Shown here: positions 6,232 through 54,736 of the stretch, in pieces | Layout: the number at the start of each line of letters is the position of its first letter | Position numbering within the stretch: the stretch's first letter is position 1 | Assembly (NCBI RefSeq): GCF_900110265.1 | Contig: NZ_FODB01000007.1 | Span: 1-64,000, forward strand | DNA: 64,000 bases | Direction of reading: 5' to 3' | Source: Vreelandella aquamarina | Lineage (GTDB): Bacteria; Pseudomonadota; Gammaproteobacteria; Pseudomonadales; Halomonadaceae | Position numbers and translations under genes: made by a program | The notes under the pieces: model-generated | Databases searched by the model: none | What the model was told of the DNA's origin: nothing | What the model saw: the letters and a program-made list of their open reading frames with translations, nothing else

Positions 6232-7962
6232 ATGGGTACGTTCAACGTCTTGTTGCGCTTTTTATGCGTAGGAATAATGGCTTGCTTGCTGTTGCTGTCC
6301 GGTTCTTTGGCCTACGCTAGCGCGCCTGCACCGCTGACCGATTGGGAGTATCGCTGGGGAGATGCTCCTTTAGAAGATGACGCGCCTTGGAGCCCCATCG
6401 ATTTTCCTTCTAACCCACCGGAGCGCAACGGCCAGAAGTCCGTTTGGTTTAAAACGGTCTTGCCAGAGGGAGAGTGGCGTGACCCAGTGTTGCACATTAC
6501 CAGCATTAACTTGGTGGGGCAGATCTACCTCGATGGCACGCTGATTTATCAGCATGGCGATATGGAGGCGCCTCGTTTCATCGGTTGGCCGTGGCATTTG
6601 GTTCCGCTGCCGGAGAATTCGGCGGGCAAGACGCTGGCGCTGCGTATCCACTCCGATTACACCAGCATCGGGCTGTGGGGCGATGTAGAGATCACCGATC
6701 GTATCGATGCGCTGAAGGGGATGCTCCACGCTTCGGTACAGGACCTTGCGGTGAGTGCCTTCAGCCTGCTACTGGCGATGTTGGCAGCGATTTTTGCTAT
6801 GATTGGGCCTGAGCGTCGGGGCTTTTTCGCCATCGCGCTGTTTGCGTTTTCGTCAGGGTTGATGCTGTTGGCAGAGACCCCCGTTCGGCAGCTGTTGGCA
6901 GACGCGCCGCTTACCTGGGACATTTTAAGAGCCGCCAGCTACTTTACACTGCCCATTGCCATAGGCTTGTTGCTGAGCCACTGGTTGGAGGGTGTACCAA
7001 AGCGCTGGATGAGACGTTTATGGCAGCTCCATTTGGCGTACCTCGTGGTTTCGATTGGTCTGGTCGCACTTGGCGTGGTGAACTTGGCACTGACGTTCCC
7101 CATATTCGATGTGCTGCTGTTGCTCACGCTCCCCCTCATGCTTCTGCTGGCGCTGCTGCGGGTGCGTCGTTTGAATTTAGAGCAGCGGCTGTTCGTCACT
7201 AGTTTCCTGCTGTTTGCGCCACTTCTGTTGCTGGACATGTTGGTGGCGCACGAGCTGATACCTCGGCGTGACGTGCCACTGAGCTATGGGGCGTTGGGCT
7301 TCTCTTTGGCTATCGTGGGGATTTCGCTGTGGCACTACCGTCATACGCAGCGTCAGCTTGCTTCGGCCAACCAGACGCTAGAAGCACAGGTGATGGCGCG
7401 GACGGCAGAGCTAGATACCTTGGTCGAGCAGTTCAAGGGGCTCTCGCTTCAGGATGCCCTGACCGGTCTCAATAACCGTCGCCATTTCGACGCCTTGCTA
7501 CATCAGGAAATGGCGCTCGCGCAGCGTAAGGGAAGCCTGCTTTCGCTGCTGATGATCGATATCGATCATTTCAAGAAAGTGAACGATAACTTTGGCCACG
7601 ACGCTGGCGATGCCGTTCTGATTGAGGTCGCGGCGCTGTTAAAGAAGCATTTTCGCGGTACGGACGTGGTGTGCCGGTTGGGGGGCGAGGAGTTCGTCGC
7701 ACTCCTACCGGGTACCGGAGCGGCCGAGGCCCAAACGCGTGCCGAGAAACTGCTGAAGGCACAGAGTAACCAAGCGTTGAGTCACCTTCATCAGCCGCTT
7801 GGACGCATTACGCTCTCTTGCGGAATCGCCACGTATCCGGCTCACACCATGGACCCTAAAAGGCTACTGCGCTTGGCCGACACAGCGTTGTACAAAGCTA
7901 AGAATAACGGCCGCGACCGTTGTGAAGTATGGGAAGGGGCCGTGTCGTCCAGCGAGCAGTAG
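6232..7962 (+). CDS. Membrane diguanylate cyclase (7TMR-DISM sensor + GGDEF)
   Basis: This 576-residue protein should make cyclic di-GMP from two GTP. A signal/TM segment (about 5-30) leads into a periplasmic jelly-roll-like region (about 35-165) and then seven hydrophobic helices (about 172-370), the 7TMR-DISM layout used to sense external ligands. A short coiled segment (about 372-405) joins these to a GGDEF domain. The active site is GGEEF at 484-488, and RGTD at 475-478 is the inhibitory I-site in its usual place five residues upstream, so product feedback is expected. No EAL domain is present. It is a single gene with an AGGGGA site 6 bases before the ATG. The ligand is unknown. Confidence 0.9.
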   Translation: MGTFNVLLRFLCVGIMACLLLLSGSLAYASAPAPLTDWEYRWGDAPLEDDAPWSPIDFPSNPPERNGQKSVWFKTVLPEGEWRDPVLHITSINLVGQIYLDGTLIYQHGDMEAPRFIGWPWHLVPLPENSAGKTLALRIHSDYTSIGLWGDVEITDRIDALKGMLHASVQDLAVSAFSLLLAMLAAIFAMIGPERRGFFAIALFAFSSGLMLLAETPVRQLLADAPLTWDILRAASYFTLPIAIGLLLSHWLEGVPKRWMRRLWQLHLAYLVVSIGLVALGVVNLALTFPIFDVLLLLTLPLMLLLALLRVRRLNLEQRLFVTSFLLFAPLLLLDMLVAHELIPRRDVPLSYGALGFSLAIVGISLWHYRHTQRQLASANQTLEAQVMARTAELDTLVEQFKGLSLQDALTGLNNRRHFDALLHQEMALAQRKGSLLSLLMIDIDHFKKVNDNFGHDAGDAVLIEVAALLKKHFRGTDVVCRLGGEEFVALLPGTGAAEAQTRAEKLLKAQSNQALSHLHQPLGRITLSCGIATYPAHTMDPKRLLRLADTALYKAKNNGRDRCEVWEGAVSSSEQ

Positions 7963-8212: not shown

Positions 8213-9031
8213 ATGCACCCGACCTACGAATTAACCGACGCTGGCGACCGCTACTTTGATGGCTTGGCAGATAAGTTCTCTCGCTCGCTCTACCAAGCAC
8301 CCCGGGGCGAGCTGCGCCTCGCGATGCTGGATTATCTTCTGCCGCAAATGCTGCACTTAAAGGCCCAGCCGGTGCTGGATGTCGGCGGTGGGTTGGGGCA
8401 GCTCTCCGGTTGGTTCGCGGCACGCGGTCACACTGTCAGCATGACAGAGCCTTCCCACGATATGCTGGCCCACGCTAAGGCGTGGCACGCTGAGCAAGAG
8501 GCCGCTGCGGTGTGGCCACCGGGGCAGCTTCGCTATGTGGAAGCTCCTCTACAGGCGCTGCCGAGCCAAGCGCCCGGCCCCTGGCCGCTGATCACCTGCC
8601 ACGCGGTATTAGAGTGGTTGGGCAATCCCGAGCACGCGCTGCAAACCCTGGCAACGCTGCTGGCGCCTGGTGGTCAACTCAGCCTGATGGTGTTTAACCG
8701 CGACGCGCTGCGCTTTTCTAACGTGGTGAAGGGCAACTATCAAAAAGCCTTGAGTGACCAGTTAGAAGGCAAGGGCAAGCGCCAGCGCTTAACGCCGATC
8801 TCCCCAGTTACCCATGATGAGATTTGCCAGTGGGTGGGCCAGAACGGCTTACATATCGAGAGCGTTGCGGGCATCCGTATTTTTCAGGATTACGTGCGCC
8901 AGGCCCCAGAGAAGGCAAGCGATCAAGCAGCACTGCTAGCGCTTGAAAAGCAGTACTGCCAGCAAGACCCTCATTGGCGCTTAGGCCGCTATTTACTTTA
9001 TACCGTTACCAAACCTGAGGCTGATGTATGA
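8213..9031 (+). CDS. cmoM: tRNA 5-carboxymethoxyuridine methyltransferase CmoM
   Basis: This class I SAM-dependent methyltransferase of 272 residues methylates cmo5U34 to mcmo5U34 in tRNAs that read four-codon boxes. The start resembles CmoM (RYFDGLADKFSRSLYQAPRG at about 12-31). Motif I is VLDVGGGLGQL, and the post-I acidic residue lies in TEPS. I chose the ATG at 8213, with AGAGG just upstream, over a GTG at 8198. Its last four bases overlap the rsmC start (ATGA), so the two are translationally coupled. CmoA and CmoB, which make its substrate, are encoded at about 22-23.7 kb. Confidence 0.85.
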   Translation: MHPTYELTDAGDRYFDGLADKFSRSLYQAPRGELRLAMLDYLLPQMLHLKAQPVLDVGGGLGQLSGWFAARGHTVSMTEPSHDMLAHAKAWHAEQEAAAVWPPGQLRYVEAPLQALPSQAPGPWPLITCHAVLEWLGNPEHALQTLATLLAPGGQLSLMVFNRDALRFSNVVKGNYQKALSDQLEGKGKRQRLTPISPVTHDEICQWVGQNGLHIESVAGIRIFQDYVRQAPEKASDQAALLALEKQYCQQDPHWRLGRYLLYTVTKPEADV

Positions 9032-15989: not shown

Positions 15990-16045
15990 GCGTTTGCCTC
16001 AGTGGCGGTGTATGCCAATACCGCCAAAGGCTCTTCTGCAAAAGA

Positions 16046-16861
16046 CTACTTGGCGTTAGGGAAAAACAGCTGTTGGCCGCCTACCTCGAAGTCAGCAATC
16101 GCCTGCTGACCCTCCTCAGAGACGAGCCACTGGTGCCACTGAGCGGCTAAATCATGCTTTAAGTGCGGGTGGCGTTCTTCCGAGAGCAGCAGGCTGCCGT
16201 ACTGGTTAAACAGCGCTTCGTCACCTTCGAACAGCAGCGTGAGGTTTTGCGGATTATCGAACGCGACCCAGGTGGCGCGGTCGGTAAAGGTGTAGGCGTC
16301 CATACCCGCAGCGGTGTTTAGGGTCGGGCCCATGCCACTGCCCAGCTCGCGGTACCAGTCGCCTTGGGGTGTCACGCCCGCATCTTCCCACAAACGCAGT
16401 TCGGCGCGGTTCGTGCCGCTGTCATCGCCTCGTGAGGCAAATGGTGACCCGCTCTCGGCGATACGCGCAAAGGCGTCTGCCACGCTCTCGCTGTCGCTAA
16501 TGCCTGCCGGGTCGTCGCTGGGGCCTACGATCACGAAGTCGTTATACATGACGTCTAAACGCTCCGTGGCGTAACCGTCCGCCACGAACTGCTCCTCGCC
16601 TGCCGTATCGTGTACCAGTAGGCTGTCAGCATCACCACGGCGGCCGATCTCAAATGCTTGCCCGGTGCCGACGGCCACCACGCGCACGTCGATGCCGGTG
16701 GCCTCGGTGAACGTGGGGATAATGGCATCGAACAGCCCTGAGTTCTCGGTGGACGTCGTGGAGGCGAGGGTAATGAAGTCGTCATCCGCGAGTGGCGAAG
16801 CACTCCAGGCCAAGGCGGTCGTGCATACGCTGGCGGTGATAAGCGTGGTCGTTGTCTTCAC
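16046..16861 (-). CDS. tupA: Tungstate-binding periplasmic protein TupA
   Basis: This 271-residue binding protein has a signal peptide (about 1-25) and the TupA oxyanion motif STTSTENSGL right after it. A later SRGDDSGT segment supplies more ligands in this family. TupA binds tungstate with very high affinity and passes it to the TupB channel. The mature part has only about two lysines and many Asp/Glu, as expected for a periplasmic protein in a salt-loving cell. It is last in the order tupB-tupC-tupA, 39 bases after tupC, and ends before a strong terminator. Confidence 0.9.
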   Translation of the reverse strand: MKTTTTLITASVCTTALAWSASPLADDDFITLASTTSTENSGLFDAIIPTFTEATGIDVRVVAVGTGQAFEIGRRGDADSLLVHDTAGEEQFVADGYATERLDVMYNDFVIVGPSDDPAGISDSESVADAFARIAESGSPFASRGDDSGTNRAELRLWEDAGVTPQGDWYRELGSGMGPTLNTAAGMDAYTFTDRATWVAFDNPQNLTLLFEGDEALFNQYGSLLLSEERHPHLKHDLAAQWHQWLVSEEGQQAIADFEVGGQQLFFPNAK

Positions 16862-41736: not shown

Positions 41737-43557
41737 TTAAGATTGACTTGCCAACCACCCCCGCCAGCCGCCAAATTCGGTGATGTCTTCAGCTTCACCG
41801 CCTTCATTTAGCGCCCCCGCGGTGCAGATAAAGCCACACTTCCAACTGCCGTCGGCAAGCTCCACCTGGCCTAAGCCGAGCGGGGCAGGAATGCCCGCTA
41901 AAAAGCTGCCCAGGGTTTCGATAGGCAAACGCCAAACTTCTACTTCAATGGCTTGGCCGGTGTCGTCGCGAAGCATCGCCGGGCGCTTTGGAGGCCCACC
42001 TGCCAGAGCAAAGAGCTTATAGCGCGGGGCGCTGTGGGTGGTGCTCACCAATACGCCACCCCGCTGTGTGAGCTGATGGTTAAGCGGCAGGCCTTTTAAG
42101 TGCGCACCGCACACCACCAGCTCCATGCTGCCATCCTGGGCAGGAGCGGGTAGTTCCTCTAAAGGCGGGTGTGGAATGCTGGTTGCGCCTAACGGTAGCA
42201 TTAGGCGCGCTTCAAGGGCGCGGGCGAGGGAGAGTAGCGTTAAGTCTGCAAATGCTGGCCCAAACAGCGTGACGCCCACCGGTAGGTCGCGCTCGCTAAA
42301 TCCCACTGGCACCGCCAGGGCGCTATAGTCGAGCAGGTTCATAAAGTTGGTCCAGGTACCCAGGCGGGAGTTAACACCGATAGGGTCCGCTGCCACCTCG
42401 GCCTTGCTTGGGTGAGTCACCGTTGTAGGCGTGAGCATCACATCCACCTGACTAATGAGTGCGTCGGCCTGGCGCTTATATTCAGCGAGTTTATAGCGCG
42501 CATCAAAGGCGTCTACTGCCAGCGGCGTTGCCCCACCCTGGGTGATTTGGAAAGTCACCGGGTGTACCGCATCCGGGTTGCTCTTCATTAGCTCACGAAT
42601 AACATGGTAGCGTTCGGCCACCCAGGGGCCTTCATAAAGTAAGCGCGCAGCAGCCAGTAACGGCGAACAGTCCAGCTCGGCCTTTTCACCGCCCAGTGCT
42701 TCAAGCTCAGCAATTGCATGGTGCATGCCTTGGGTATAGGCCGCATCGGTTTGCCACTGGGATTCCAGTGGCACTCCAAAGCGAAACGTAGCGGGCGCTT
42801 TTCCGTAGCGTTTGCCGTGTACGGCAAAGTCATGCTGGCGCGACCAAGCGCACTCGGCATCATAGGCTGCGGTAATATCCAGCACCTTTGCGGCATCGTC
42901 AGCGGTCAGCGCAAACAGGCTAATGGTATCCAGTGTGGCGCAAGCGGGTACCACGCCCCGGGTGCTAAGCAGCCCCAAGCTCGGTTTAACTCCGTATAAG
43001 TTATGAAAGCATGCAGGCACGCGGCCAGAGCCTGCCGTATCGGTGCCCAGTGCAAAACTGACCATGCCAGCGGCTGTAACCACCGCAGAGCCGCTGCTGG
43101 AGCCGCCAGGCACCAGCGTTGGGTCGAAGGCATTGGCAGGGGTGCCATAAACTTCCAGCGCCCGCTCGCCTACCAGCCCGGTGGCGAACTGATCCAGATT
43201 GGTTTTACCCATGGGAATAGCGCCCGCATCGATCAACTGCTGCACCACAAAAGCGTTTTCCGAGGGCGTGTAAGCATAGGCCGGGCTGCCCGCAGTGGTG
43301 GGTATCCCTGCGAGGTCGATGTTGTCTTTCAGCGCAAAGGGAATGCCGTAAAGCGGCAACGTTTCCGGTGACTCACCTTCTAGGCGCTGTAAATAGGGCG
43401 CCAACTGCTCGCGACTTAAGCGGGTAATCCAGGCGGGCTCTTTACCGTGGTTTTCGGCCGCTGCCAACAGCTGACTGATAAGATCAGAAGGGGTGAGTTT
43501 GCCGCTACGGTAGGCTGCATGCAGGCTGGCAATATCGAGTGCAATAGGAAGCGTCAT
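41737..43557 (-). CDS. atzF: Allophanate hydrolase
   Basis: This 606-residue enzyme splits allophanate into two ammonia and two CO2. The amidase-signature triad is visible as Lys77, Ser153 and Ser177, in ALKDNI, GGSSSG and TAGSGR. A separate C-terminal domain (about 470-600) is typical of AtzF and decarboxylates the intermediate. It is the last gene of the guanidine operon, 14 bases after an unknown gene. It would consume the product of the carboxylase and the DUF1989 pair. Confidence 0.92.
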   Translation of the reverse strand: MTLPIALDIASLHAAYRSGKLTPSDLISQLLAAAENHGKEPAWITRLSREQLAPYLQRLEGESPETLPLYGIPFALKDNIDLAGIPTTAGSPAYAYTPSENAFVVQQLIDAGAIPMGKTNLDQFATGLVGERALEVYGTPANAFDPTLVPGGSSSGSAVVTAAGMVSFALGTDTAGSGRVPACFHNLYGVKPSLGLLSTRGVVPACATLDTISLFALTADDAAKVLDITAAYDAECAWSRQHDFAVHGKRYGKAPATFRFGVPLESQWQTDAAYTQGMHHAIAELEALGGEKAELDCSPLLAAARLLYEGPWVAERYHVIRELMKSNPDAVHPVTFQITQGGATPLAVDAFDARYKLAEYKRQADALISQVDVMLTPTTVTHPSKAEVAADPIGVNSRLGTWTNFMNLLDYSALAVPVGFSERDLPVGVTLFGPAFADLTLLSLARALEARLMLPLGATSIPHPPLEELPAPAQDGSMELVVCGAHLKGLPLNHQLTQRGGVLVSTTHSAPRYKLFALAGGPPKRPAMLRDDTGQAIEVEVWRLPIETLGSFLAGIPAPLGLGQVELADGSWKCGFICTAGALNEGGEAEDITEFGGWRGWLASQS

Positions 43558-43571
43558 AATAAATTCCTTAA

Positions 43572-44288
43572 TTAAATCGGTGTCACTAAAGAAGAATGAA
43601 GCCGGTTTGCTGCACTGTCATAAATCACTCCCTTCCGCCACGGCTGGGTAGATAGCACTACCCGCCAACCGTCTTGGCTACGCTCTAAGTAGTCAAAGCA
43701 TAGGCTGGCGCGCCAGAGAAGAGCGCTGTCAGTTAAGCTATTGATTGGGGCGAATAGTGCGTCTGCATTATCTGCCCAAGGGCGAGGTGTGATTGCCATA
43801 GCGTGGTCGCCGATTTGCAGCCAGCGCAGTTGGCCCTGCGCGTCTTGAATTACGTCTTCAACGGCATCGTTGGAAAGCTGTTGCCAGTGCTCAACGTACT
43901 GATCGTGCGGATGTCGCTCTTCTATAATGGTGCCGTCAATCCAGCGCAGTAGCCCTACATCCTTTTCCAGGCTAGGGCATAGATCCTGATAGCGATGCCA
44001 GGTGCATACCCCTAGCTCACTATCGATTTGGGTAATACCTGCAAAAGCAGTGAGTCTCGCCAGCCATTCAAGCTGGCGGCGGTTGCAGTCGTCTAAACCA
44101 GTGATGCCTGAAAAGTCAGGCGAGTCTGCAGGCAGGCGCAGGTCGGCATGCCAGTGCTTGCCCTGAAGCCAATAAACCTGAGTAGTGGTGTCGGTCTGTT
44201 GGTAGGGTGCTTTAGCGGGCTCATCGTAGAGCGTGCGCTGCCATACGCCACGAAATGCTTGAGGTGTGGCAGGTAAGCCGACGTTCAT
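43572..44288 (-). CDS. Unknown protein embedded in the guanidine operon
   Basis: This 238-residue protein has no signal peptide or TM helix. It is rich in Trp and Asp, with blocks such as GVWQRTLYDEP (about 14-24), DTTTQVYWLQG (33-43) and CTWHRYQDLCPSLEKDVG (about 94-111). It looks beta-rich, possibly a lipocalin-like barrel, and I recall similar conserved proteins without a known role. It overlaps the oxygenase gene by four bases (ATGA type) and lies 14 bases before atzF, so it is surely in the operon. I do not assign a function. Confidence 0.72.
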   Translation of the reverse strand: MNVGLPATPQAFRGVWQRTLYDEPAKAPYQQTDTTTQVYWLQGKHWHADLRLPADSPDFSGITGLDDCNRRQLEWLARLTAFAGITQIDSELGVCTWHRYQDLCPSLEKDVGLLRWIDGTIIEERHPHDQYVEHWQQLSNDAVEDVIQDAQGQLRWLQIGDHAMAITPRPWADNADALFAPINSLTDSALLWRASLCFDYLERSQDGWRVVLSTQPWRKGVIYDSAANRLHSSLVTPI

Positions 44289-45349
44289 AAGGGGTCTTCC
44301 TTATGCTTACCATGCTGGCCCAGACTACCCACTTCCCGGGCACCTTCGGGGAGCGCAATTTCACCCTTCGCCAAGCGCTCGCGCAGGTAGCGGAAGGTTT
44401 GGATGGTTTGGGCGAAGAGGTGGTCGCCTGCTTTTAGTGCTGAGTACCGGGCTTGTCCGTGGCGAGCGACCAGCTCGGGGAGTGGTTCGACCACGGTGTG
44501 GTAGTCACAGGCGAAAAACAGCGGGAACGAGTAGCGCTCCTCTTTCACTTTACGTACCCGATGGGAGGTGGCAACAAACTCGCCATTACTCCAGATCTCA
44601 AGCATATCGCCAATATTGACGATCAACGCGCCCTCCTTGAAAGGTACATCGATCCACTCGCCTTTCCCATTCATCACCTCAAGCCCTGGCGCGGTAGGCA
44701 GTAGCAGGGTAAAGCACTCGTAGTCAGTGTGGGCGCCGATGCCTTGGGCATCCTCAGCATTAGGGTTATAAGGGTAATGGATCAGGCGCAGCTGACTGGG
44801 CGGCTTATTGACGTGCTGAAGCAGTTGCTGGGGAGCCAGCCCCAGCGCCATAGCAAAGCCGCCCATCAGTGCGCGCCCGACGTGGTACGCCGCGTCGTAA
44901 TAAGCGGCCACTGGCTCCTTGAAACCATCAAGGTTAGGCCAGGGGTTAGGGCCAAGCAGTGGCGTTCCGGCCAGCACGTCCGGGTCATCGCTAGGTAGCT
45001 CGAAAGCGAGGTCGAAAGCCTCTTTCATGTCGGGCTTGGCTGGGTCTGGCGATTCTTCGCCGGGCGGCACATAGCCGCGATGGTGATGGTAGAGGCCGAT
45101 GTAGCGCTCCATTTTGATCGCTTCAGACTGTGCGAAGAAACGCTTGGCCTGATGAATCAGGCCTTCGCGCAGTGAACCATCAATACCATGGCCCACCATT
45201 TGGAAAAAGCCCACGTCTCGGGCGGCGCGGCCCAGCTCAGCGGCGACCTCGCGGCGTGCCTGTTCATCCCCGTGCAGCAGGGGATGAATGTCGATAATGG
45301 GGATCTCCTGAAAGGCTGCTAAGCGTTGGTCTGCGGCAGACGTATTCAT
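44285..45349 (-). CDS. 2-oxoglutarate/Fe(II)-type oxygenase (isopenicillin N synthase family)
   Basis: This 354-residue enzyme has the DIOX_N domain (about 15-115) and the double-stranded beta-helix domain. Iron ligands are His207, Asp209 (AHTDYE) and His263 (ATSHRV). The RYSF motif at 272-275 supplies the Arg and Ser that bind 2-oxoglutarate. It overlaps the carboxylase gene and the unknown gene by four bases each. Plant enzymes of this superfamily hydroxylate homoarginine or arginine and release guanidine. By position this one might release guanidine from a larger compound, but its substrate is not known. Confidence 0.83.
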   Translation of the reverse strand: MNTSAADQRLAAFQEIPIIDIHPLLHGDEQARREVAAELGRAARDVGFFQMVGHGIDGSLREGLIHQAKRFFAQSEAIKMERYIGLYHHHRGYVPPGEESPDPAKPDMKEAFDLAFELPSDDPDVLAGTPLLGPNPWPNLDGFKEPVAAYYDAAYHVGRALMGGFAMALGLAPQQLLQHVNKPPSQLRLIHYPYNPNAEDAQGIGAHTDYECFTLLLPTAPGLEVMNGKGEWIDVPFKEGALIVNIGDMLEIWSNGEFVATSHRVRKVKEERYSFPLFFACDYHTVVEPLPELVARHGQARYSALKAGDHLFAQTIQTFRYLRERLAKGEIALPEGAREVGSLGQHGKHKEDPL

Positions 45350-48300
45350 GCGTCAGCCTCCTCTTCTTGGGTGAGCACCACCAGAGGCTGGCCGGGTCCA
45401 ATGGCTGCACCTTCTGCAAGCGGCAGCCTAGCAACACGCCCAGCGCAGTGGGCCGTGACCTCTACCTCCATTTTCATCGACTCCACCAGCGCCACCGGCT
45501 GACCGGCGTCTACCTGCTCCCCCTCCTTGACCAGCAGTTTCCACAGGCTACCGGTCACTGGGCTTTCGATACCCAGTTCATTTTCGTCCAGAGTGTCGAC
45601 TTCTGCGCTAGCTGGTGCTTGGTCTTCAAAGGTGAACTGGCCGTTGGCGCGCCAGGCTGCCATTTCTGCCTGGAAGGCGGCCTCGCGCTTAGTGCGAAAT
45701 GCCTCGATGGCGTCGGCGTTTTTATCGATATCGGCTTGGTAGTCGGCCAGTTTGAAGCGGGCCGTTTCAATAGGCAGCTCGAAGCGCCCGTGGGGAAAGT
45801 CACGGCGAATTTGCTGTAGCTCTTCGTGGCTGACTTCATAAAAGCGAAGTTGATCAAAAAATCGCAGCAGCCAAGGGTTATTGAAGTACTGTGTGGTGCG
45901 GTAACGGTTCCACATCTGCAGCGTGCGGCCAACGAACTGGTAGCCGCCGGGGCCTTCCATGCCATAAACGCATAAGTAGGCGCCGCCAATACCCACCGAG
46001 TTTTCCGCCGTCCAGGTACGGGCGGGGTTGTATTTGGTGGTGACCAAGCGGTGGCGCGGGTCGAGGGGTGTCGCGACGGGCGCCCCCAAATACACATCTC
46101 CTAAGCCCATCACCAGATAACGGGCGTTGAAGACGATATCGCGCACTTGCTGTTCACTTTCAAGGGCGTTGATGCGACGAATAAAATCCAAATTACTGGG
46201 GCACCAGGGAGCATCTGGGCGTACGCTGCGCTGATACTTGTCGATAGCTTCCTGGCAGGCGGGGTCATCCCAGGAGAGCGGTAGATGCACGACCCGGGAC
46301 TCTACTTCCAGTGATTCCACATCCACCAGCGCCTGCTCGGCTTGTTGTAGGTGGACAAGCAGATCGTCAAGGCTCAGCTCTAGCGGTTCGAAATGCACTT
46401 GCAGAGAACGTATACCGGGCGTTAGCTCTCGAAGCCCTGTAAGCGGATGTTCACGCAGCCACAGCATCCAGGCGTGAACCCGGAACCGGAGGGCGATATC
46501 CAGCTCCATGGGGCCAAATTCGATCAGCAGGAAGTCATCTCCGGCACGGAGGTATACGACCCGTTCACCGGCCTCAGAGGCAGGTACATCTCGTAGAATC
46601 GGGCTAGCCCGCTCTGTGGTTAACGCAACGTTGGGGATAGGTGCTAGTGACGCGAGTTGAGTGAGTTGGCGCTCCTCTAAGTCGCGGGCGGTGGTGAGGG
46701 TTACCGGGACAAAGCGGACCTTGTCACCAGCGGTGAGTTGCCCCAGCTTCCAGCGTTCAGCGCGCACCACGGTGGCCGGGCAGACAAAGCCACCCAGTGA
46801 CGGGCCGTCCGGTCCAAGAATGACCGGCATGTCGCCGGTAAAGTCGATAGTGCCAAAGGCGTAGGCGTTATCGTGAATATTGGAAGGGTGCAGGCCCGCT
46901 TCACCGCCATCTGCCCGTGCCCACTCTGGGCGTGGGCCAATTAGCCGTACACCGGTGCGGCTGGAGTTGTAGTGCACTTCCCAATCGTGGTCGAAGAAGC
47001 GTTCGATATCGCTATCAGTGAAAAAGTCTGGCGCGCCGTGGGGGCCATAAAGCACGGCAATTTCCGTCACGCTTTCGGAACCGTTGCCAATGGCGGGGGC
47101 TAGCGCGTTATCCAGCGTGCGTGAGGGCGCAGGCATCAGCGTGGGCAGCTCCAGCATATCGCCGCTGCGCAGTGCCCGCCCGCCATGGCCGCCAAACTGG
47201 CCTAGAGTGAAGGTGCTGCGAGAGCCCAGATAGCGAGGGCATTCAATGCCGCCGCGCACTAGAAGATAAGCGCGTGCCCCAGCGGTGGCCTTGCCTAACG
47301 TAAGCGTGGCACCGGCCGGCACATCAATGACTTCCCAGTGATTAATGGGGTTGCCATCCAGCGAGGCGGGCAACTTGGCGCCTGCTAGCACGACCTGTGT
47401 GGCCCGGTGAAAGCGCAGCGTGGGGCCCTGGAGGGTAATTTCTAGGCCAGCGGCATCCGTGGGATTGTCGAGCAGGCGATTGCCAAGGCGAAACGACCAG
47501 TCGTCAAACGGGCCGGAAGGCGGCACACCCACATCCCAGTGACCCTGGCGACCGGGAAAATCCTGAATTGTGGTGAGCGTGCCAGGGGCGATCACTTCCA
47601 TGGCGGGAGGTGCCCACGCCAGGGTGGTAAGCCAGTGGGTGTCGATATCCGCCTGCTGAAAGCGTTCGGCACGCAGAACGTGGGCAAGCCAGCTACGGTT
47701 GGTGGCAATGCCATAAACGCTGGTGTTGTCCAGCGTATCCGCCAGCTGTGCCGTCGCCTGCTTGCGGCTTTCGGCATGCACCATCACTTTGGCTAGCATG
47801 GGGTCAAATAGCGGTGACACTTCCAGGCCTGCCTCAATGGCGTGGTCGATGCGCAGGCCGCTGGCTTCAGGAAAGATGACTTCCGTCAGTAGCCCGGCGC
47901 TGGGGCGAAAATCGTGAGCAGGGTCTTCGGCGTACAGACGTGCCTGGACGGCGTGACCAGTGGGAGAGAGCGTCTGGGCAAGTGTTTCCAGGCGAGGGAG
48001 TTCTCCGGCGCCGAGCTTTACCATCCATTCGACGATATCGACGCCGTAGACCAGCTCGGTGACGCCGTGCTCCACCTGTAGGCGAGTATTAACCTCCAGA
48101 AAATAGAAAGCTTCACGCTCGGCGTCGTAAATGAACTCGACGGTTCCCGCGCTGCGGTAGTTGACCGCTTTGCCTAGTTGCACCGCCGTGGCGTGCAGTG
48201 ATTGGCGCACGGCTTCGGGGAGGTTCGGGGCTGGGCACTCTTCTAGTACTTTTTGATGGCGGCGCTGGGTAGAGCAGTCTCGTTCACCGAGGGCGATAAC

Positions 48301-48972
48301 ACTGCCCTGGCCATCGCCAAACAGCTGTACTTCCAGATGGCGGGCACGTGCGATATAGGCTTCCAGGAAGACACCGCCATCGCCAAAGTTGCGCTCGCCA
48401 AGGCCTTTCACTGACTCAAAGGCGCGTGCCAGCTCCGTGTGAGAGTGGCAGACCTGCATGCCGATGCCACCGCCACCAGCAGTGGATTTCAGCATGACCG
48501 GGTAGCCAATTCGTTCGGCGGCTTGCTTAGCGTCTTCGAGGGTCTCCAGCAGCTGTGATCCTGGCACCAGCGGTACGCCTGCCTTTTCGGCGAGTGCGCG
48601 GGCTTCGTGCTTGAGGCCAAACTGCTGTATCTGCTCGGCGGTGGGGCCTAGAAAGACGAGCCCGGCGGCATCGCAGGCGGTAATAAATCGCGTGTTTTCC
48701 GAGAGGAAGCCGTAGCCAGGATGGATGGCCTGGGCACCGCTTTGTTGGGCGATAGCGATCAGTTTGTCGATGTTCAGGTAGGTATCGCTAGCCGCCCCCT
48801 CACCGAGTGAGTAGGCCTCATCGGCTTGATGCACATAAGGGGCGTCGCGGTCGGCATCGGCGTACACCACCACGCTCCCCACACCTAAAGCTTTAAGCGT
48901 GCGTAGAATACGGGTGGCAATCGCGCCGCGATTGGCAATCAGGACTTTGCTAAACGTTTTATGGATGGACAT
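45346..48972 (-). CDS. Biotin-dependent guanidine/urea carboxylase
   Basis: This enzyme of about 1208 residues has a biotin carboxylase domain (about 1-450), an allophanate hydrolase-like subunit 2/1 pair forming the carboxyltransferase (about 475-1090) and a biotin-carrier domain with Lys1167 in ESMKMEV. It carboxylates urea or guanidine using ATP and bicarbonate. Enzymes of this type next to DUF1989 genes have been shown to prefer guanidine, so carboxyguanidine is the likely product. I start at the ATG at 48972. The Asp/Asn difference that separates guanidine from urea enzymes could not be located by eye. Confidence 0.88.
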   Translation of the reverse strand: MSIHKTFSKVLIANRGAIATRILRTLKALGVGSVVVYADADRDAPYVHQADEAYSLGEGAASDTYLNIDKLIAIAQQSGAQAIHPGYGFLSENTRFITACDAAGLVFLGPTAEQIQQFGLKHEARALAEKAGVPLVPGSQLLETLEDAKQAAERIGYPVMLKSTAGGGGIGMQVCHSHTELARAFESVKGLGERNFGDGGVFLEAYIARARHLEVQLFGDGQGSVIALGERDCSTQRRHQKVLEECPAPNLPEAVRQSLHATAVQLGKAVNYRSAGTVEFIYDAEREAFYFLEVNTRLQVEHGVTELVYGVDIVEWMVKLGAGELPRLETLAQTLSPTGHAVQARLYAEDPAHDFRPSAGLLTEVIFPEASGLRIDHAIEAGLEVSPLFDPMLAKVMVHAESRKQATAQLADTLDNTSVYGIATNRSWLAHVLRAERFQQADIDTHWLTTLAWAPPAMEVIAPGTLTTIQDFPGRQGHWDVGVPPSGPFDDWSFRLGNRLLDNPTDAAGLEITLQGPTLRFHRATQVVLAGAKLPASLDGNPINHWEVIDVPAGATLTLGKATAGARAYLLVRGGIECPRYLGSRSTFTLGQFGGHGGRALRSGDMLELPTLMPAPSRTLDNALAPAIGNGSESVTEIAVLYGPHGAPDFFTDSDIERFFDHDWEVHYNSSRTGVRLIGPRPEWARADGGEAGLHPSNIHDNAYAFGTIDFTGDMPVILGPDGPSLGGFVCPATVVRAERWKLGQLTAGDKVRFVPVTLTTARDLEERQLTQLASLAPIPNVALTTERASPILRDVPASEAGERVVYLRAGDDFLLIEFGPMELDIALRFRVHAWMLWLREHPLTGLRELTPGIRSLQVHFEPLELSLDDLLVHLQQAEQALVDVESLEVESRVVHLPLSWDDPACQEAIDKYQRSVRPDAPWCPSNLDFIRRINALESEQQVRDIVFNARYLVMGLGDVYLGAPVATPLDPRHRLVTTKYNPARTWTAENSVGIGGAYLCVYGMEGPGGYQFVGRTLQMWNRYRTTQYFNNPWLLRFFDQLRFYEVSHEELQQIRRDFPHGRFELPIETARFKLADYQADIDKNADAIEAFRTKREAAFQAEMAAWRANGQFTFEDQAPASAEVDTLDENELGIESPVTGSLWKLLVKEGEQVDAGQPVALVESMKMEVEVTAHCAGRVARLPLAEGAAIGPGQPLVVLTQEEEADA

Positions 48973-49047
48973 GGCACTGCCTGCAAACAAAGGCGGGTCG
49001 TCCCGCAGGTTGTTTGGCCTTCTAGGGTCGTCCCTAGGGCGAATTAC

Positions 49048-49686
49048 TTAACCCCAAATCAGTAGCTCGATGGGCGTGGGGTTGTAGCCGTTGCAGGGGT
49101 TGTTGAGCTGAGGGCAGTTGGAGATCAGCACGATGACATCCATTTCTGCGACCATTTCCACATACTTGCCCGGTGCGGAGATACCGTCTTCAAACGTCAG
49201 CCCGCCGTCAGCGGTCACCGGTACGTTCATGAAGAAGTTGATGTTGTGGGTGATGTCCCGCTTGCTCAGGCCATACTCTGGGTGGTTGGCGATGGCCTGC
49301 ATCCAGTTATCCCGGCAGGAGTGCATGTGGCGCTTTTCCAGGTCGTAGCGCACGGTGTTGCTTTCGCTGGCGCAGGCACCACCTAGGGTGTCGTGGCGGC
49401 CGCAGGTGTCGGCGGTGAGGGTAAGCATCGTGCGACCTTCGCTGGAGATCAGCTTGGAGCCCGTCGTGAGATAGACCGCTCCCTGTTCGCGAACGGTATC
49501 CATGGCGCTGTAGCGCTCGGCGGTGTCGTCGGCGCTGAAGAACAGCGTGTCAGCCGCTTGGTTGCCTTCCAGGTCTAAAATCCGCAAGGTTTGGCCCTGC
49601 TTCACGGTGCCAATATAGTGATCGCCCGCATTAACGGTAGTGCGGCTAAGCGCGTTTTCGGGGCGTAAGGTACTCTCGATAATCAT
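49048..49686 (-). CDS. DUF1989 protein, UAAP2-type subunit of carboxyguanidine deiminase
   Basis: This 212-residue protein matches the urea-carboxylase-associated protein 2 pattern: [13 protein letters not shown] at the start, [32 protein letters not shown], and [10 protein letters not shown] near the end. In Pseudomonas syringae two DUF1989 proteins form a heterodimeric carboxyguanidine deiminase (CgdAB) that makes allophanate. The cysteines in CGRHD and CNG are likely metal ligands. AAGGGG precedes the ATG at 49686 by eight bases. I do not assign A or B. Confidence 0.87.
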
Positions 49687-49696
49687 GGTTTTCCCC

Positions 49697-50419
49697 TTAA
49701 AGGCCGAGGTGGTATAGGCGGTTATTGGCAAAGCCACGGGCGTTTTCTGGCCGTGAGCGGTAGCAAGGATCGTCCTCTGTTGGTGGCTCAGCCGTACCTA
49801 ACGCGATATCGACGCCACGGCGCGGGTAGTCAGTGGCAGGGTCCAGCGGGTGGGGGCAGGTATGCAACAACACTAGGGTATCCATCTCGAAGCGCAGCGT
49901 GACGCTGTTGCCCGGCTGGCAGTGGTTGCTGACATAGTGCAGCTTGCCTTCGTCATCGCTCTCGACGCGAGAGAACAGGTTGAGATTGGCAGCCATGTCT
50001 CGGCGGCTAAGCCCATACTTGGCGAGTTCGACCAGGAAGGCGTCGAAGCCGGTGCGCGTCCAGTCATTGTGGGCCTGCTGGTAGCTCACTGGCTGCCAGC
50101 CTTTGGCCAGCAGGTGTTGGGGCAGCAGGTTACCGCCAACGCTGTCGTGCCAGCCAAGGTCATCATGCGTGATCGAGGCAAAGATGCGGCCCATGTCCGA
50201 GTAAAGGCAGTGGCCTTGGGTCAGTTTGAACGTGTGCTGGCACTTCAAGGTGTCCGGCAGGTTTAAGCGCTCCAGCAGGTTTTCTGGGTTGTAGCAGAGT
50301 AATCCTACGTTGCTGTTGGCCTCCTGGGCGGTCAGGGTTAGTGTTGTGCCGCGACGTAGGCGGAGTGACCAGTGGTGCCCGCCGGGTAAATGAGTGGTGT
50401 AATCGGGCTGGCTATTCAT
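49697..50419 (-). CDS. DUF1989 protein, UAAP1-type subunit of carboxyguanidine deiminase
   Basis: This 240-residue protein has the [17 protein letters not shown] start and the [11 protein letters not shown] segment in place of the CGRHD block of its partner. It fits urea-carboxylase-associated protein 1. It should form the heterodimer with the next gene product, 10 bases downstream. Its start overlaps the ABC ATPase stop by four bases, so translation is coupled to the importer. Confidence 0.87.
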
Positions 50420-51210
50420 AGCAGCGTCTCCTGGGTGTGGGTTTTCAGTCCGCCCTGATGAAGTGCTTCCGTTAAGGCTGCCGTTGGACGGTCTCTCGAA
50501 ATGGGCAGGTCATAGGTAATGGTGGCGCCATAGGCTTCCGGGGCTTGAGGGTCGTGGCGGGTTTTGTCAAACACCCATAGCCGTGTGCCCAGCTCAAAGG
50601 CCTCTTTTAGGTCGTGGGTGATCATGAAGATGGTGAGCTGCTGCTCTTGCCAAAGTCGCGTGATTAATTCGTGCATGTCCTGGCGAATGCCGGGGTCCAG
50701 GGCACCAAATGGCTCATCCAGCAACAGCATGCGTGGCCGCATCATGAGCGCCTGGGCGATGGCTAGACGTTGCTGCATGCCGCCGGACAGCTCATGGGGA
50801 TACTTATTAAGCGCGTGACTTAGGCCAACTTCTTCAATACGTGCTTGGGCTTTCTCAATCGCGTGCCGTTTGGCAGTGCCAAAACTTTTTCCAAGCAGCT
50901 TGGCACTATGCAGCTCATCGGCCATCATCACGTTGCCCAGCACAGTCAGGTGTGGAAAGACGGAATACTTCTGAAATACCACCCCTCGATCCGGGCCGGG
51001 TTCGTTAGGAATGGGCTTACCATCTAGCAGAAGGTTGCCTTTTGAAATGGCTTCGGTGCCTAGCAGCATCTTTAAAAACGTGGTTTTACCGCAGCCAGAG
51101 GCACCTACCAGCGTGACAAATTCTCCTTGCTCGACGCTGAAATTAAGGTTCTCAAGCACGACGTGATGGCCGTAATGCTTTTCTAGGCGTTTGGCGGACA
51201 GTAGGCTCAT
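50416..51210 (-). CDS. ABC transporter ATP-binding protein, guanidine importer (predicted)
   Basis: This 264-residue ATPase has Walker A GASGCGKT (about 36-43), signature LSGGMQQR and Walker B LLLDEP, and belongs to the SsuB/TauB (nitrate/taurine) group. With the permease and binding protein it should form an importer. It overlaps the permease by four bases and the UAAP1 gene by four. The cluster position and the riboswitch upstream indicate guanidine or a guanidine compound, often annotated as a urea transporter. Confidence 0.85.
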   Translation of the reverse strand: MSLLSAKRLEKHYGHHVVLENLNFSVEQGEFVTLVGASGCGKTTFLKMLLGTEAISKGNLLLDGKPIPNEPGPDRGVVFQKYSVFPHLTVLGNVMMADELHSAKLLGKSFGTAKRHAIEKAQARIEEVGLSHALNKYPHELSGGMQQRLAIAQALMMRPRMLLLDEPFGALDPGIRQDMHELITRLWQEQQLTIFMITHDLKEAFELGTRLWVFDKTRHDPQAPEAYGATITYDLPISRDRPTAALTEALHQGGLKTHTQETLL

Positions 51211-52034
51211 GATTTGTCTCCTTCGCCCGAGTGGTACCAGGGAAAGGCAAGGCGCGATGTCCAGGCGAGAATCTGGTCAAGAAGGAACGCCAGCAGCGTA
51301 ATCCACGCCACGTAGGGCAGAATCACGTCCATCGACAGGTAGCGGCGAACCAGAAAAATGCGGTAACCAAGCCCCTCTTGGGCGGCAATTGCTTCGGCAG
51401 CTATTAAAAACAGCCAGGCGCTGCCGAGGGCCAAGCGAGTGGCATTCAGTAGCCGCGGCGTGAGTTGGGGCAGTAGCACCCGCAACAGTACCTGCCAGGA
51501 GCTGGCTCCCAGGGTTTGTGCTTTGATCAGCTGTTCATCGGGAAGTCGCAGCGCATGGCCTTGCAGGTCGCGAATCAGAAACGGCGTCACCCCAATCACG
51601 ATCAACGCGATCTTGGCGGCCTCACCGGTGCCAAAGGCGATGAATAGAATCGGAAGTATCGCCATCGGAGGGATAAGCGACGCGACGGTGACCAGCGGTG
51701 AGAGTTTGGCGCGGATGAGCGGAATGCCGCCGTTTAAAATACCCACTACGAGGCCGATGAAAGCGCTGATCGCCACGCCAATGAGAATCCGCTCTAAGCT
51801 GGCGAAAGTGTCTGTCCATAGAACGATTTGGCCAGTGCGTACGTTTTCTGCGGTGGCCAAATGATAAAATGAGCTTGCCATGGTGGCCGGAGTGGGCAGT
51901 AGCCGATCATTAGGGTTCTCGGCCAGCCGGGCATTGGAAAGGCTCAGGTAAACCATGGCCAATAACAGGAAAGGCAACAGTCCCAGCAGCCATCTGCTCC
52001 CTCGGGATGGGGCTAGATTAATGAGTCGCTTCAT
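51207..52034 (-). CDS. ABC transporter permease, guanidine importer (predicted)
   Basis: This 275-residue permease has about six helices and the EAA-type loop (LIKAQTLGASSWQVLLRVLL), the TauC/SsuC pattern. It is an inner-membrane subunit of the importer. It lies 60 bases after the binding-protein gene and overlaps the ATPase gene. Confidence 0.87.
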   Translation of the reverse strand: MKRLINLAPSRGSRWLLGLLPFLLLAMVYLSLSNARLAENPNDRLLPTPATMASSFYHLATAENVRTGQIVLWTDTFASLERILIGVAISAFIGLVVGILNGGIPLIRAKLSPLVTVASLIPPMAILPILFIAFGTGEAAKIALIVIGVTPFLIRDLQGHALRLPDEQLIKAQTLGASSWQVLLRVLLPQLTPRLLNATRLALGSAWLFLIAAEAIAAQEGLGYRIFLVRRYLSMDVILPYVAWITLLAFLLDQILAWTSRLAFPWYHSGEGDKS

Positions 52035-52094
52035 GGCGGATGTCCATCGAAGATAAAAGCAGAGGGAGCAGCCGTGGCTACTCCCATGGGCTAG

Positions 52095-53177
52095 TTACTG
52101 AGCGTCGAGGTAAGCTTGGGTAAAGCTGGGGTCGAAGCGCAGTTGCACGTTGCTCTCGTCTCCGAAGACGCCACTGGGTGTCTCAATGCCGACGACTTCT
52201 GCGTTTGGTGCCATGTCGCCTAGTAGGCCGTGCTGGAAGCTGAATTCAGCCACTCGCTGCATGGTGTTGAGCAGCTCTGGGCTTTCCATGAGCGCGATGG
52301 CTTCGGCGGGGTCGGTGTAGAGGTAGGTGGCGGCAAGTTGCTGACGATAACCGTCAATATCAGTGCCAGCGGCATCTGCCATGATGCCAAGCGCATTTTC
52401 ATCATCTGCCTCGATGAGTCCCATCACTTCATACCAAGCGCCTACCAGGGCATGACCCAGTGCCGGGTTATCCGCCAAGGTTTGCGTATTTACGACCATC
52501 ATGTCGAGTATCTCGCCGGGGATCTCAGCTGAGGTGTACACCACGTTGCTATCCGCCATATCCTCGATGGCACCTAACTGGGGGTTCCAGGCAGCGACGG
52601 CTTCTGTGGTGTCGCTCGCGAACAGGCCGACGATATCCGCATCGGACGTATTCACCGTTTCGATATCGCGTTCAGTCAAGCCAACGCTTTCGAGAGCACG
52701 GGCCAGAAAGTAGTGAGAGACGCTGAATTGAACGAGATTGACCTGACGGCCCGCAATATCGGCTAGGTCATCGCTGCCTTTCAGCACGATGCCATCATTG
52801 CCGTTGGAGTAATCGTTGATAATCAGTGCGGTGGAGTCGACGCCGCTGACCGATGGAATCGTTAGAGCATCCATGTTGGTCATGGCACACCCATCGACGT
52901 TGCCAGAAGTGAACTGATTGATGGATTCCACGTAATCATTCACCTGCACGACATCGATACTAATGCCGTATTCGTCGGCCCACTTATTGACCACGCCTTC
53001 TACGTCGGCATAGGACCAGGGCATCCAGCCGGCATAAATCGACCAGCAGACGCTAAAGTCGCTGCGTTCTTGCGCTTGGGTAGGTGTGATCGTCATCGTC
53101 AAGGATGATGCTAGTAGCGCCGCGGTCAGCGGAGCTAGGGACAGGCTTTTGAGGGCAGAGCGATTGGAACGGGTCAT
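52095..53177 (-). CDS. ABC transporter substrate-binding protein, guanidine importer (predicted)
   Basis: This 360-residue protein has a signal peptide (about 1-36, ending PTQA) and a TauA/SsuA-like two-lobe fold. Relatives are annotated as putative urea ABC transporter binding proteins. The mature chain has only about two lysines and many Asp and Glu, which points to a halophile. It is the first gene after the guanidine-I riboswitch, with GGAGG seven bases before the ATG. The ligand is inferred from the riboswitch and the enzymes downstream. Confidence 0.87.
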   Translation of the reverse strand: MTRSNRSALKSLSLAPLTAALLASSLTMTITPTQAQERSDFSVCWSIYAGWMPWSYADVEGVVNKWADEYGISIDVVQVNDYVESINQFTSGNVDGCAMTNMDALTIPSVSGVDSTALIINDYSNGNDGIVLKGSDDLADIAGRQVNLVQFSVSHYFLARALESVGLTERDIETVNTSDADIVGLFASDTTEAVAAWNPQLGAIEDMADSNVVYTSAEIPGEILDMMVVNTQTLADNPALGHALVGAWYEVMGLIEADDENALGIMADAAGTDIDGYRQQLAATYLYTDPAEAIALMESPELLNTMQRVAEFSFQHGLLGDMAPNAEVVGIETPSGVFGDESNVQLRFDPSFTQAYLDAQ

Positions 53178-53228
53178 GAGAGCCTCCAGCGGCTAAGAAA
53201 AAACTCAGGGGCATCGGCGCATCACTGT

Positions 53229-53345
53229 GCCTTATCCTCCCGGGCTTTTATCCCGCCGTGTAACCTTGCGCTTGCAAGGTCGATTGCTCTCGGACCAGCC
53301 ACGTCCATCAGGGGCATATCGTTGATGGCGTCGGAACCCTAGCGA
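53229..53345 (-). promoter_or_regulatory. Guanidine-I (ykkC) riboswitch
   Basis: Read on the minus strand, all conserved parts appear in order: CTAGGGTTCCG (53332-53342), TGGTCCGAGAG (53287-53297), a 7-base hairpin (53263-53280), ACGGCGGGATAAAAGCCCG (53241-53259) and CGGGAGGATAAG (53231-53242). This is the ykkC class I pattern that binds free guanidinium and turns genes on. It ends about 50 bases before the binding-protein ATG. A U6 tract (53198-53203) lies between, but I did not find a clear terminator stem, so the switching mode is open. Confidence 0.93.
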
Positions 53346-53412
53346 TCTATTGGAAACTCGATTGTGTGGCAGCGAAGGCAGCCAATACCCCATGTGTAAC
53401 ACTTAACTACAC

Positions 53413-53428
53413 AGCAAAATATTGGCCG
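53413..53428 (-). promoter_or_regulatory. Candidate sigma-54 promoter of the guanidine operon
   Basis: On the minus strand the sequence reads CGGCCAATATTTTGCT, with GG and GC ten bases apart and TTGCT at the -12 element, against the consensus TGGCACG-N4-TTGCW. It would start RNA at about 53402, some 57 bases before the riboswitch. This would tie the operon to nitrogen limitation through NtrC. It is a single-site match by eye. Confidence 0.45.
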
Positions 53429-53576: not shown

Positions 53577-54599
53577 TCACAAAGGCGTTTTGCTCATCTT
53601 ACCTGGCACTTCACGCACCAGCCGTGGCATGAGAAAGCCGGGTAAGTGTTCCAATAGTGCTTGTATGAGCGCTTGCGCCTCTTTGTCAGGCACGTCAAAG
53701 TGCGCGGCGCCCTGAACTGGGTCGAGTACGTGGAGGTAGTAGGGCAGCACGCCTGCTTCAAACAGCCGTTCCGAGAGGGCTGCGAGGGTAGGCACGTTGT
53801 CGTTAATGTCCCGTAATAGAACGCTCTGGTTTAGCAGCGTGACGCCTGCCTGTTTTAAGCGCGTGCAGGCATCCACCACGGCCTGATCAATTTCATTGGC
53901 GTGGTTGATATGCAGCACGACGACTTTTTGTAAGCGGGTGCTGCCTAACCAGCTTAGCAGGCCTTCATCCACACGGTCGGGAATGACCACCGGCAAGCGG
54001 GTGTGAATGCGCAGCCGTTTTAGGTGAGGAATGCTCTCTAGCTGTTCGACCAGCCACGCCAGCTGCCGGTCGCTGGCGGCAAAGGGGTCGCCTCCTGATA
54101 GGATGGCTTCGTGAATCGAGGTGTCGGCACGTAGGTAGTCCAGCGCTTCCTGCCACTGGGCGCGGGAAGGCGAGTTCTCGCTATAAGGAAAATGGCGGCG
54201 AAAGCAGTAGCGGCAGTTGATTGCGCAGGCTGGGCTTGCTATCAGAAGTACCCGGTTTGCATATTTATGGATCAGCCCTTTGACGGGGCGGTGGTCGGCT
54301 TCCTCTAACGGGTCTGTGACGTAGCCCGGTGAGGCCAGTGTTTCATCGCCTATAGGCAGCACTTGACGCAACAGCGGGTCATTAGGGTCGTTGGGCTTAA
54401 TGCGGGCAAGGTAAGCGTCGGGCACGCAAATATCGAACAGACGATGTCCGGCCTGCACTTCGGGCAGCCATTGGGCGTCTAAACCAAGGCGTTGGCAGAG
54501 CGTGTCGGGATCACGAATCGCATGAGAAAGCTGCTGCTGCCAGGAGGTCGAAACCTGGGCATGGGCGTGGTGACCAGCGATAATGATGTTCTCCTGCAA
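53577..54599 (-). CDS. epmB: EF-P (R)-beta-lysine 2,3-aminomutase EpmB
   Basis: This 340-residue radical SAM/PLP enzyme turns (S)-alpha-lysine into (R)-beta-lysine for EF-P modification. The 4Fe-4S motif is CAINCRYC and the RRHF that follows is typical; a SGGDPF block binds SAM. I propose a TTG start at 54599 because AAGGAGG lies six bases before it and the length then equals E. coli EpmB (342). An ATG at 54725 would add 42 residues and overlap the efp leader. It is divergent from efp. Confidence 0.88.
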   Translation of the reverse strand: MQENIIIAGHHAHAQVSTSWQQQLSHAIRDPDTLCQRLGLDAQWLPEVQAGHRLFDICVPDAYLARIKPNDPNDPLLRQVLPIGDETLASPGYVTDPLEEADHRPVKGLIHKYANRVLLIASPACAINCRYCFRRHFPYSENSPSRAQWQEALDYLRADTSIHEAILSGGDPFAASDRQLAWLVEQLESIPHLKRLRIHTRLPVVIPDRVDEGLLSWLGSTRLQKVVVLHINHANEIDQAVVDACTRLKQAGVTLLNQSVLLRDINDNVPTLAALSERLFEAGVLPYYLHVLDPVQGAAHFDVPDKEAQALIQALLEHLPGFLMPRLVREVPGKMSKTPL

Positions 54600-54736
54600 A
54601 AAGCCCTCCTTCGGGTTATCATGCGCGCACTTAGCGGCGTTGCTATTCGCAATGACGCAACTGACGGTAACGTAAGTGGCTGGCAGATCGCCGCACGTAC
54701 GACATAGACAATTGAAACAGACCATTGAGAGGCATT

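Follow-up and report, generated by a model that had tools for sequence, protein, structure and literature searches.

A methylguanidine operon of the V. boliviensis type

The window, a 64,000-nt stretch of Vreelandella aquamarina DNA, carries on its minus strand, from 53353 down to 41737, an operon of nine genes and two guanidine riboswitches that is almost certainly a guanidine/methylguanidine assimilation operon of the Vreelandella boliviensis type, here in another Vreelandella. The open reading frame (ORF) list, Pfam and NCBIfam give the following 5′-to-3′ order: genes for a substrate-binding protein, a permease and an ATPase, followed by cgdA, cgdB, gca, mgdH, mgdL and atzF. The methylguanidine-degrading operon of V. 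boliviensis LC1 was described by Sinn et al. in 2025 (Nat Commun; PMC12508155). A guanidine-I riboswitch stands at the head of the LC1 operon, a guanidine-II riboswitch precedes gca, and mgdH and mgdL lie between gca and atzF. The pathway in the window is already known, in another Vreelandella, and involves no new mechanism; the operon is one more well-conserved copy. An earlier note on this DNA had proposed that the two genes between the carboxylase and AtzF carry out an accessory step, which it would probe with larger guanidine compounds. This proposal agrees with the methylguanidine demethylation published for the orthologous operon, and its novelty falls away since all nine genes and both riboswitches were already reported for LC1 (PMC12508155).

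In the LC1 study, MgdH hydroxylates methylguanidine with a KM of 0.16 mM and a kcat of about 20 per s. The N-(hydroxymethyl)guanidine formed decays with a half-life of more than 1 h; MgdL splits it into guanidine and formaldehyde, an activity that is lost in D49 and R51 variants. Furthermore, LC1 grows on methylguanidine and the proteins of the operon are strongly induced (PMC12508155).

A genome scan yielded eight MgdL-encoding loci, including that of V. boliviensis LC1 itself (L013). Seven of them are about 20 kb long, while the eighth (L014) is a 3.5-kb contig that carries the final part of MgdH followed by MgdL and AtzF; the loci partly overlap with the genomes surveyed below (L010 is from G018 and L011 from G027). 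In all seven long loci, the order from the importer through CgdA, CgdB, Gca and MgdH to MgdL is that of the window, with AtzF directly next in six and about 6 kb further on in L010. Compared with L013, MgdL of the window is 67–68% identical and the other eight proteins are 83–94% identical. For MgdH, 293 of 353 aligned residues are identical (83.0%), and the metal triad (H207-x-D209 and H263) as well as R272-x-S274 occupy identical positions in the two proteins. For MgdL, 155 of 227 residues are identical (68.3%), with D49 and R51 at the same numbers; both residues are kept in all 12 rows of alignment A1. Thus the window and LC1 are alike in their nine genes, gene order, places of both riboswitches, and catalytic residues of MgdH and MgdL, and they differ in the species and in the divergent C-terminus of MgdL.

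We infer by this orthology that the activities of MgdH and MgdL and the ligands of the riboswitches carry over from V. boliviensis to the window. The ABC transporter would then import guanidine and methylguanidine. MgdH would hydroxylate methylguanidine to N-(hydroxymethyl)guanidine, which MgdL would cleave to guanidine and formaldehyde, so that the methyl group is removed. The carboxylase would convert guanidine to carboxyguanidine, CgdAB would convert carboxyguanidine to allophanate, and AtzF would release ammonia and CO2 from allophanate.

MgdH resembles the guanidine-releasing 2-oxoglutarate (2-OG) oxygenases, namely the ethylene-forming enzyme and plant 2-ODD-C23, in belonging to the same superfamily and in hydroxylating next to a guanidino nitrogen; unlike MgdH, these enzymes use arginine or homoarginine as substrates, and their hemiaminal decays spontaneously (PMC12508155). 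The closest match of MgdH among Protein Data Bank (PDB) sequences is 9ovh, which is labelled as ethylene/succinate-forming. At E 0.001, MgdL falls into no family of Pfam or NCBIfam, its three matches among PDB sequences all have E values of 0.22 or worse, and no match was found on plasmids at E 1e-5. A Foldseek search with the predicted model of MgdL returned mainly lipocalin/FABP-type barrels as top matches, none with E ≤ 0.001, and the model is therefore given no weight here. One distant MgdL-like protein has a weak Pfam match to HRI1 (26.9 bits, below the cutoff of 27).

Riboswitches and regulation

Both riboswitches are kept in the same places in all seven long related loci, guanidine-I upstream and guanidine-II before the carboxylase. 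According to the LC1 study, the guanidine-I riboswitch of V. boliviensis binds guanidine and not methylguanidine, while its guanidine-II riboswitch binds the two about equally by in-line probing (PMC12508155). The general arrangement is already found in a review, in which guanidine-I stands over the importer and the carboxyguanidine deaminase, and guanidine-II over the carboxylase and the allophanate hydrolase; the guanidine carboxylase operons covered there share this with the window and differ from it in having neither mgdH nor mgdL in the part of the review available (PMC12186494).

The guanidine-II riboswitch of the window forms two hairpins with ACGR loops, and GGGACGACCC occurs in it twice. 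The 78-nt carboxylase leader folds better than its shuffles (z −3.09; 3 of 200 shuffles did as well or better). All eight aligned leaders, several of which are near-identical, share without change a GCAGG immediately ahead of the start codon and a CUGC on the 5′ margin of the second hairpin. The match between CUGC and GCAGG could mask the ribosome site, which the ligand would unmask, in agreement with a proposal made for LC1 (PMC12508155).

In this scheme, guanidine-I, responding to guanidine only, would open transcription of the whole operon, and guanidine-II, responding to guanidine and methylguanidine alike, would open translation of the carboxylase. Translation of mgdH and mgdL would probably be opened together with that of gca through the 4-base overlaps described next.

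Layout of the operon

The guanidine-I aptamer (RF00442) occupies 53235–53353 at the head of the operon, on the minus strand like all features that follow. Its cmscan score of 84.9 bits exceeds the gathering threshold of 63 (E 1e-13 over all 64 kb); the earlier note had listed a full guanidine-I motif here. The importer consists of a periplasmic substrate-binding protein (52095–53177; TIGR03427 / NMT1) and, by ORF and family search, a permease (51207–52034) and an ATPase (50416–51210). Next come two DUF1989 proteins, which would be the subunits of the carboxyguanidine hydrolase (cgdA/B): one of the UAAP1 type (49697–50419; TIGR03425, 298 bits, cutoff 206) and one of the UAAP2 type (49048–49737; TIGR03424, 336.5 bits, cutoff 284.7). 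The guanidine-II (mini-ykkC) riboswitch (RF01068; 49039 to 48993; cmscan 42.6 bits, gathering threshold 32) is absent from the earlier account. It lies ahead of gca (45346–48972; TIGR02712, 1790 bits), which encodes a biotin-dependent urea/guanidine carboxylase. The last three genes are mgdH (44285–45349), a 354-residue 2-OG/Fe(II) oxygenase with PF14226 (DIOX_N) and PF03171 (2OG-FeII_Oxy) that would be the methylguanidine hydroxylase by orthology, mgdL (43572–44288), whose 238-residue product is the putative N-(hydroxymethyl)guanidine lyase by orthology to MgdL of LC1, and the allophanate hydrolase gene atzF (41737–43557; TIGR02713, 733 bits, and PF21986 AH_C). By Pfam and NCBIfam, the full set of the guanidine carboxylase pathway is thus present together: the carboxylase, both DUF1989 subunits and the allophanate hydrolase. 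ORFs and families match the places and order that the earlier note gave for the importer, the two DUF1989 proteins, the biotin carboxylase and AtzF on one strand, and its 2-OG/Fe oxygenase and unknown protein between carboxylase and AtzF are mgdH and mgdL.

That note had also read the junctions as mostly 4-base overlaps, which is slightly too strong. Exact 4-base overlaps are found at four of the eight junctions (permease/ATPase, ATPase/CgdA, Gca/MgdH and MgdH/MgdL), and they include both of those that tie mgdH and mgdL to gca and to each other. Elsewhere, the substrate-binding protein and permease genes are separated by 60 bases, cgdB and gca by 75, and mgdL and atzF by 14. The cgdA and cgdB genes either overlap by 41 bases, if cgdB begins at its GTG, or lie about 10 bases apart, if it begins at an ATG near 49686. 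Alignments of CgdB begin at residue 16–17 of the GTG version in five of the seven long related loci and at residue 1 in two, and the true start is possibly the ATG. The start of gca is most likely the ATG near 48972 (1208 residues) rather than the TTG at 48990.

Directly upstream of the guanidine-I riboswitch lies the gene for EpmB (EF-P beta-lysylation protein; 53577–54725, minus strand), which has no evident operon link.

Alternative readings

Several observations weigh against assigning the window operon to guanidine and methylguanidine assimilation. Of the nine proteins, MgdL shows the lowest conservation, and its predicted model is strand-rich but of low confidence (mean pLDDT 64.7, from a nine-sequence alignment). 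The NCBIfam model matched by the carboxylase (TIGR02712) is named urea carboxylase, and the enzyme activities assigned to this strain are deduced from orthology. In addition, folding gives no support for a terminator behind guanidine-I, which a transcriptional mode would require: the 85-nt downstream stretch folds little better than its shuffles (z −1.24, with 22 of 200 at least as good).

The family names raise the question of whether the operon degrades urea rather than guanidine, with the two extra genes as mere passengers. The best names are indeed urea carboxylase and urea amidolyase associated proteins, and these are older than the guanidine work. However, two guanidine riboswitches of different classes stand before the importer and the carboxylase, and the extra genes are joined to their neighbours by 4-base overlaps and keep their catalytic residues. 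The orthologous operon is, moreover, induced by (methyl)guanidine and its proteins act on (methyl)guanidine (PMC12508155). That Gca would act on guanidine is suggested by the riboswitches, by CgdAB and by its orthology to Gca of V. boliviensis (85%). We rejected the urea reading because of the two riboswitch classes and the orthology to the tested operon, and consider it scarcely credible.

It is somewhat less remote, and still very improbable, that mgdH and mgdL serve another N-alkylguanidine, e.g. dimethylguanidine or a guanidino acid, with methylguanidine being only a side substrate. N,N-dimethylguanidine is also accepted by MgdH of LC1 (PMC12508155), and in two genomes of the genus a distant MgdH-like/MgdL-like pair lies near genes for a guanidinobutyrase-like enzyme and a guanidino-oxopentanoate decarboxylase (see below), where the pair may be redeployed. 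Yet MgdH of the window is 83% identical to the tested enzyme, and the operon and its riboswitch set are identical, which favours methylguanidine as the substrate.

Distribution within the genus

We searched 58 genomes, 37 of which belong to the genus of the window, its own genome included. The thresholds were at least 62% identity for MgdL, E ≤ 1e-60 and at least 85% for MgdH, and at least 83% identity for a full-length carboxylase. MgdL is found in 7 of the 37 genus genomes and MgdH in the same seven, where the two are always adjacent. Among the matches listed (best first), 11 of the 37 genomes carry a full-length close carboxylase, and all seven with MgdH and MgdL are among these. The four others (G003, G013, G017 and G035) have the carboxylase without mgdHL among the matches listed, and in a twelfth, G031, the carboxylase is fragmented; G017 and G031 are less than 90% complete. 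No mgdH/mgdL pair of this close kind occurs without the carboxylase among the matches listed for the 58 genomes.

The earlier note had named a lack of both genes in the neighbours of other genomes as evidence against its reading. Such a lack is partly found, with MgdH/MgdL in seven genus genomes versus the carboxylase in 11, but wherever the pair occurs in the genus, it stands together and beside the carboxylase. mgdH and mgdL are therefore optional in the genus, and the window shows that these demethylation genes travel together in guanidine carboxylase operons.

MgdL homologues across the class

A search with an MgdL profile in 369 genomes drawn across the class gave matches in seven, among them that of the window and G005. 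In G227 (L027), a carboxylase gene preceded by guanidine-II is followed by an extra gene, mgdH and mgdL. The extra gene (L027, 6053–6940) encodes 295 residues and has no Pfam match.

The distant MgdH-like/MgdL-like pair is present in two genus genomes, G005 (L018, 927–17768) and G027 (L019, 1925–18751). The MgdL-like proteins are 26–27% identical, and the MgdH-like frame has 268 residues in G005 vs. 351 in G027. By Pfam and NCBIfam, the neighbourhood in G005 includes a PhyH oxygenase, a class II aldolase and an importer whose binding protein is PotD-like, far below the curated cutoff. On the opposite strand nearby are genes for a guanidinobutyrase-like enzyme (PDB 3nio, E 2.6e-145) and a 5-guanidino-2-oxopentanoate decarboxylase. 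Neither of the two stretches has any Rfam match, and so no guanidine riboswitch. This pair may act on a substituted guanidino acid.

In G141 (L028, 8170–17001), an MgdL-like gene is followed by genes for EamA, an ABC importer, creatininase, a glutamine-synthetase-like protein and CgdA/CgdB-like DUF1989 proteins; neither this stretch nor L084 ahead of it has a guanidine riboswitch. In G269 (L029), the one scanned neighbour of the MgdL-like gene is an alcohol dehydrogenase gene. Finally, G164 (L031) and G297 (L030) have MgdL-like genes together with PF00487 fatty-acid-desaturase-type genes behind guanidine-I. The His boxes of these two desaturase-type proteins are HEFAH/HMRHH/HNAHH and HECAH/HFRHH/HNAHH; the L031 protein has no match among PDB sequences at E 0.01.

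A desaturase-type cluster in another order

In its full form in L031 (8299–15993, with guanidine-I at 16044–16142 on the minus strand), the desaturase-type cluster encodes an NMT1 binding protein, a desaturase-type oxygenase that has three His boxes, two short-chain dehydrogenases, an EamA transporter, creatininase, isochorismatase, a protein of the metallo-beta-lactamase fold, and MgdL. An MgdL-family match is present in 23 of 300 genomes of the order of G164, as found with a profile (A2) that included L030 and L031 and so leans to such members. We examined the neighbourhoods in the 22 genomes other than G164, and these and the following counts are uncorrected for shared ancestry. At least two of the L031 cluster genes lie near MgdL in 13 of the 22, and not in the other nine (L066 and L068–L075). 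The cluster loci beside L031 are L055–L065, L067, L076 and L077–L083.

Among the 13 loci (tblastn, 1e-8), isochorismatase is matched in 12, creatininase, EamA and the desaturase type in 10 each, the metallo-beta-lactamase fold in nine, and at least one dehydrogenase in eight, while MgdH has no match in any of them. The MgdL-family gene is usually the last of the cluster, and other loci are without one or more of the L031 genes. A desaturase-type gene is missing from the stretches of L055, L058 and L076; two of them, L058 and L076, are short pieces, the latter with no more than a fragment of MgdL. The genomes of L055 and L058 carry such a gene on another contig, while none is matched at 1e-50 in the genome of L076 (G535).

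A guanidine-I riboswitch lies upstream of the binding protein heading the cluster in all eight assessable loci (L031, L055, L056, L063, L077, L078, L080 and L081), i.e. those with more than about 150 bases readable upstream of the binding protein. L083 offers just 104 bases, and the contigs of L057, L058, L076 and L082 break off ahead of the head gene. In L079, the 1053 bases before the first cluster gene contain neither a riboswitch nor a binding protein gene.

Both D49 and R51 are kept in 22 of 30 aligned MgdL-family sequences. These include all 12 alignable cluster loci (L055–L065 and L067); among the nine non-cluster loci, only L068 keeps both. Judged from this alignment, conservation of the two residues follows genomic context. 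A desaturase-type protein (E ≤ 1e-50) is present in 22 of the 300 genomes, which are taken as the same set in both searches from their matching identifiers. Where MgdL retains both D49 and R51, 13 of 14 genomes have the desaturase-type protein. As for the other nine carriers, the MgdL-family protein of G479 lacks R51 and eight have no MgdL-family match, so the desaturase type also occurs alone.

From its position and His boxes, our guess is that the desaturase-type protein, as a di-iron membrane oxygenase, would replace MgdH and strip an N-substituent from a guanidine. Tentatively, and with slightly less than even confidence, we suggest that MgdL may belong to a broader family of hemiaminal lyases acting on N-substituted guanidines, of which it would be the first to be tested and which would work with several kinds of oxygenases. 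Few guanidine-producing enzymes are known (PMC12508155), and if MgdL-type lyases do serve other oxygenases, guanidine-riboswitch clusters combining a fatty acid desaturase with a creatininase would be a new bacterial source of free guanidine. This lead, which lies outside the window, may be new. No account of the desaturase cluster or of the distant pair linked to arginine catabolism was found in the available parts of the literature searched, including PMC12508155, PMC12186494, PMC7266159 and PMC2211319, with the supplement of 216 MgdL homologues of PMC12508155 lying outside this coverage. Similarly, none of the matches listed is, by its title and the start of its abstract, an on-point paper on bacterial methylarginine demethylation by 2-OG oxygenases.

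In G617 the cluster faces a carboxylase–AtzF gene pair, and in G547 it faces an AtzF gene. In L081, guanidine-I occurs twice, in divergent orientation with about 400 bases between, at 7775–7882 (minus strand) and 8282–8387 (plus strand), one of which heads the desaturase-type cluster and the other a second ABC importer.

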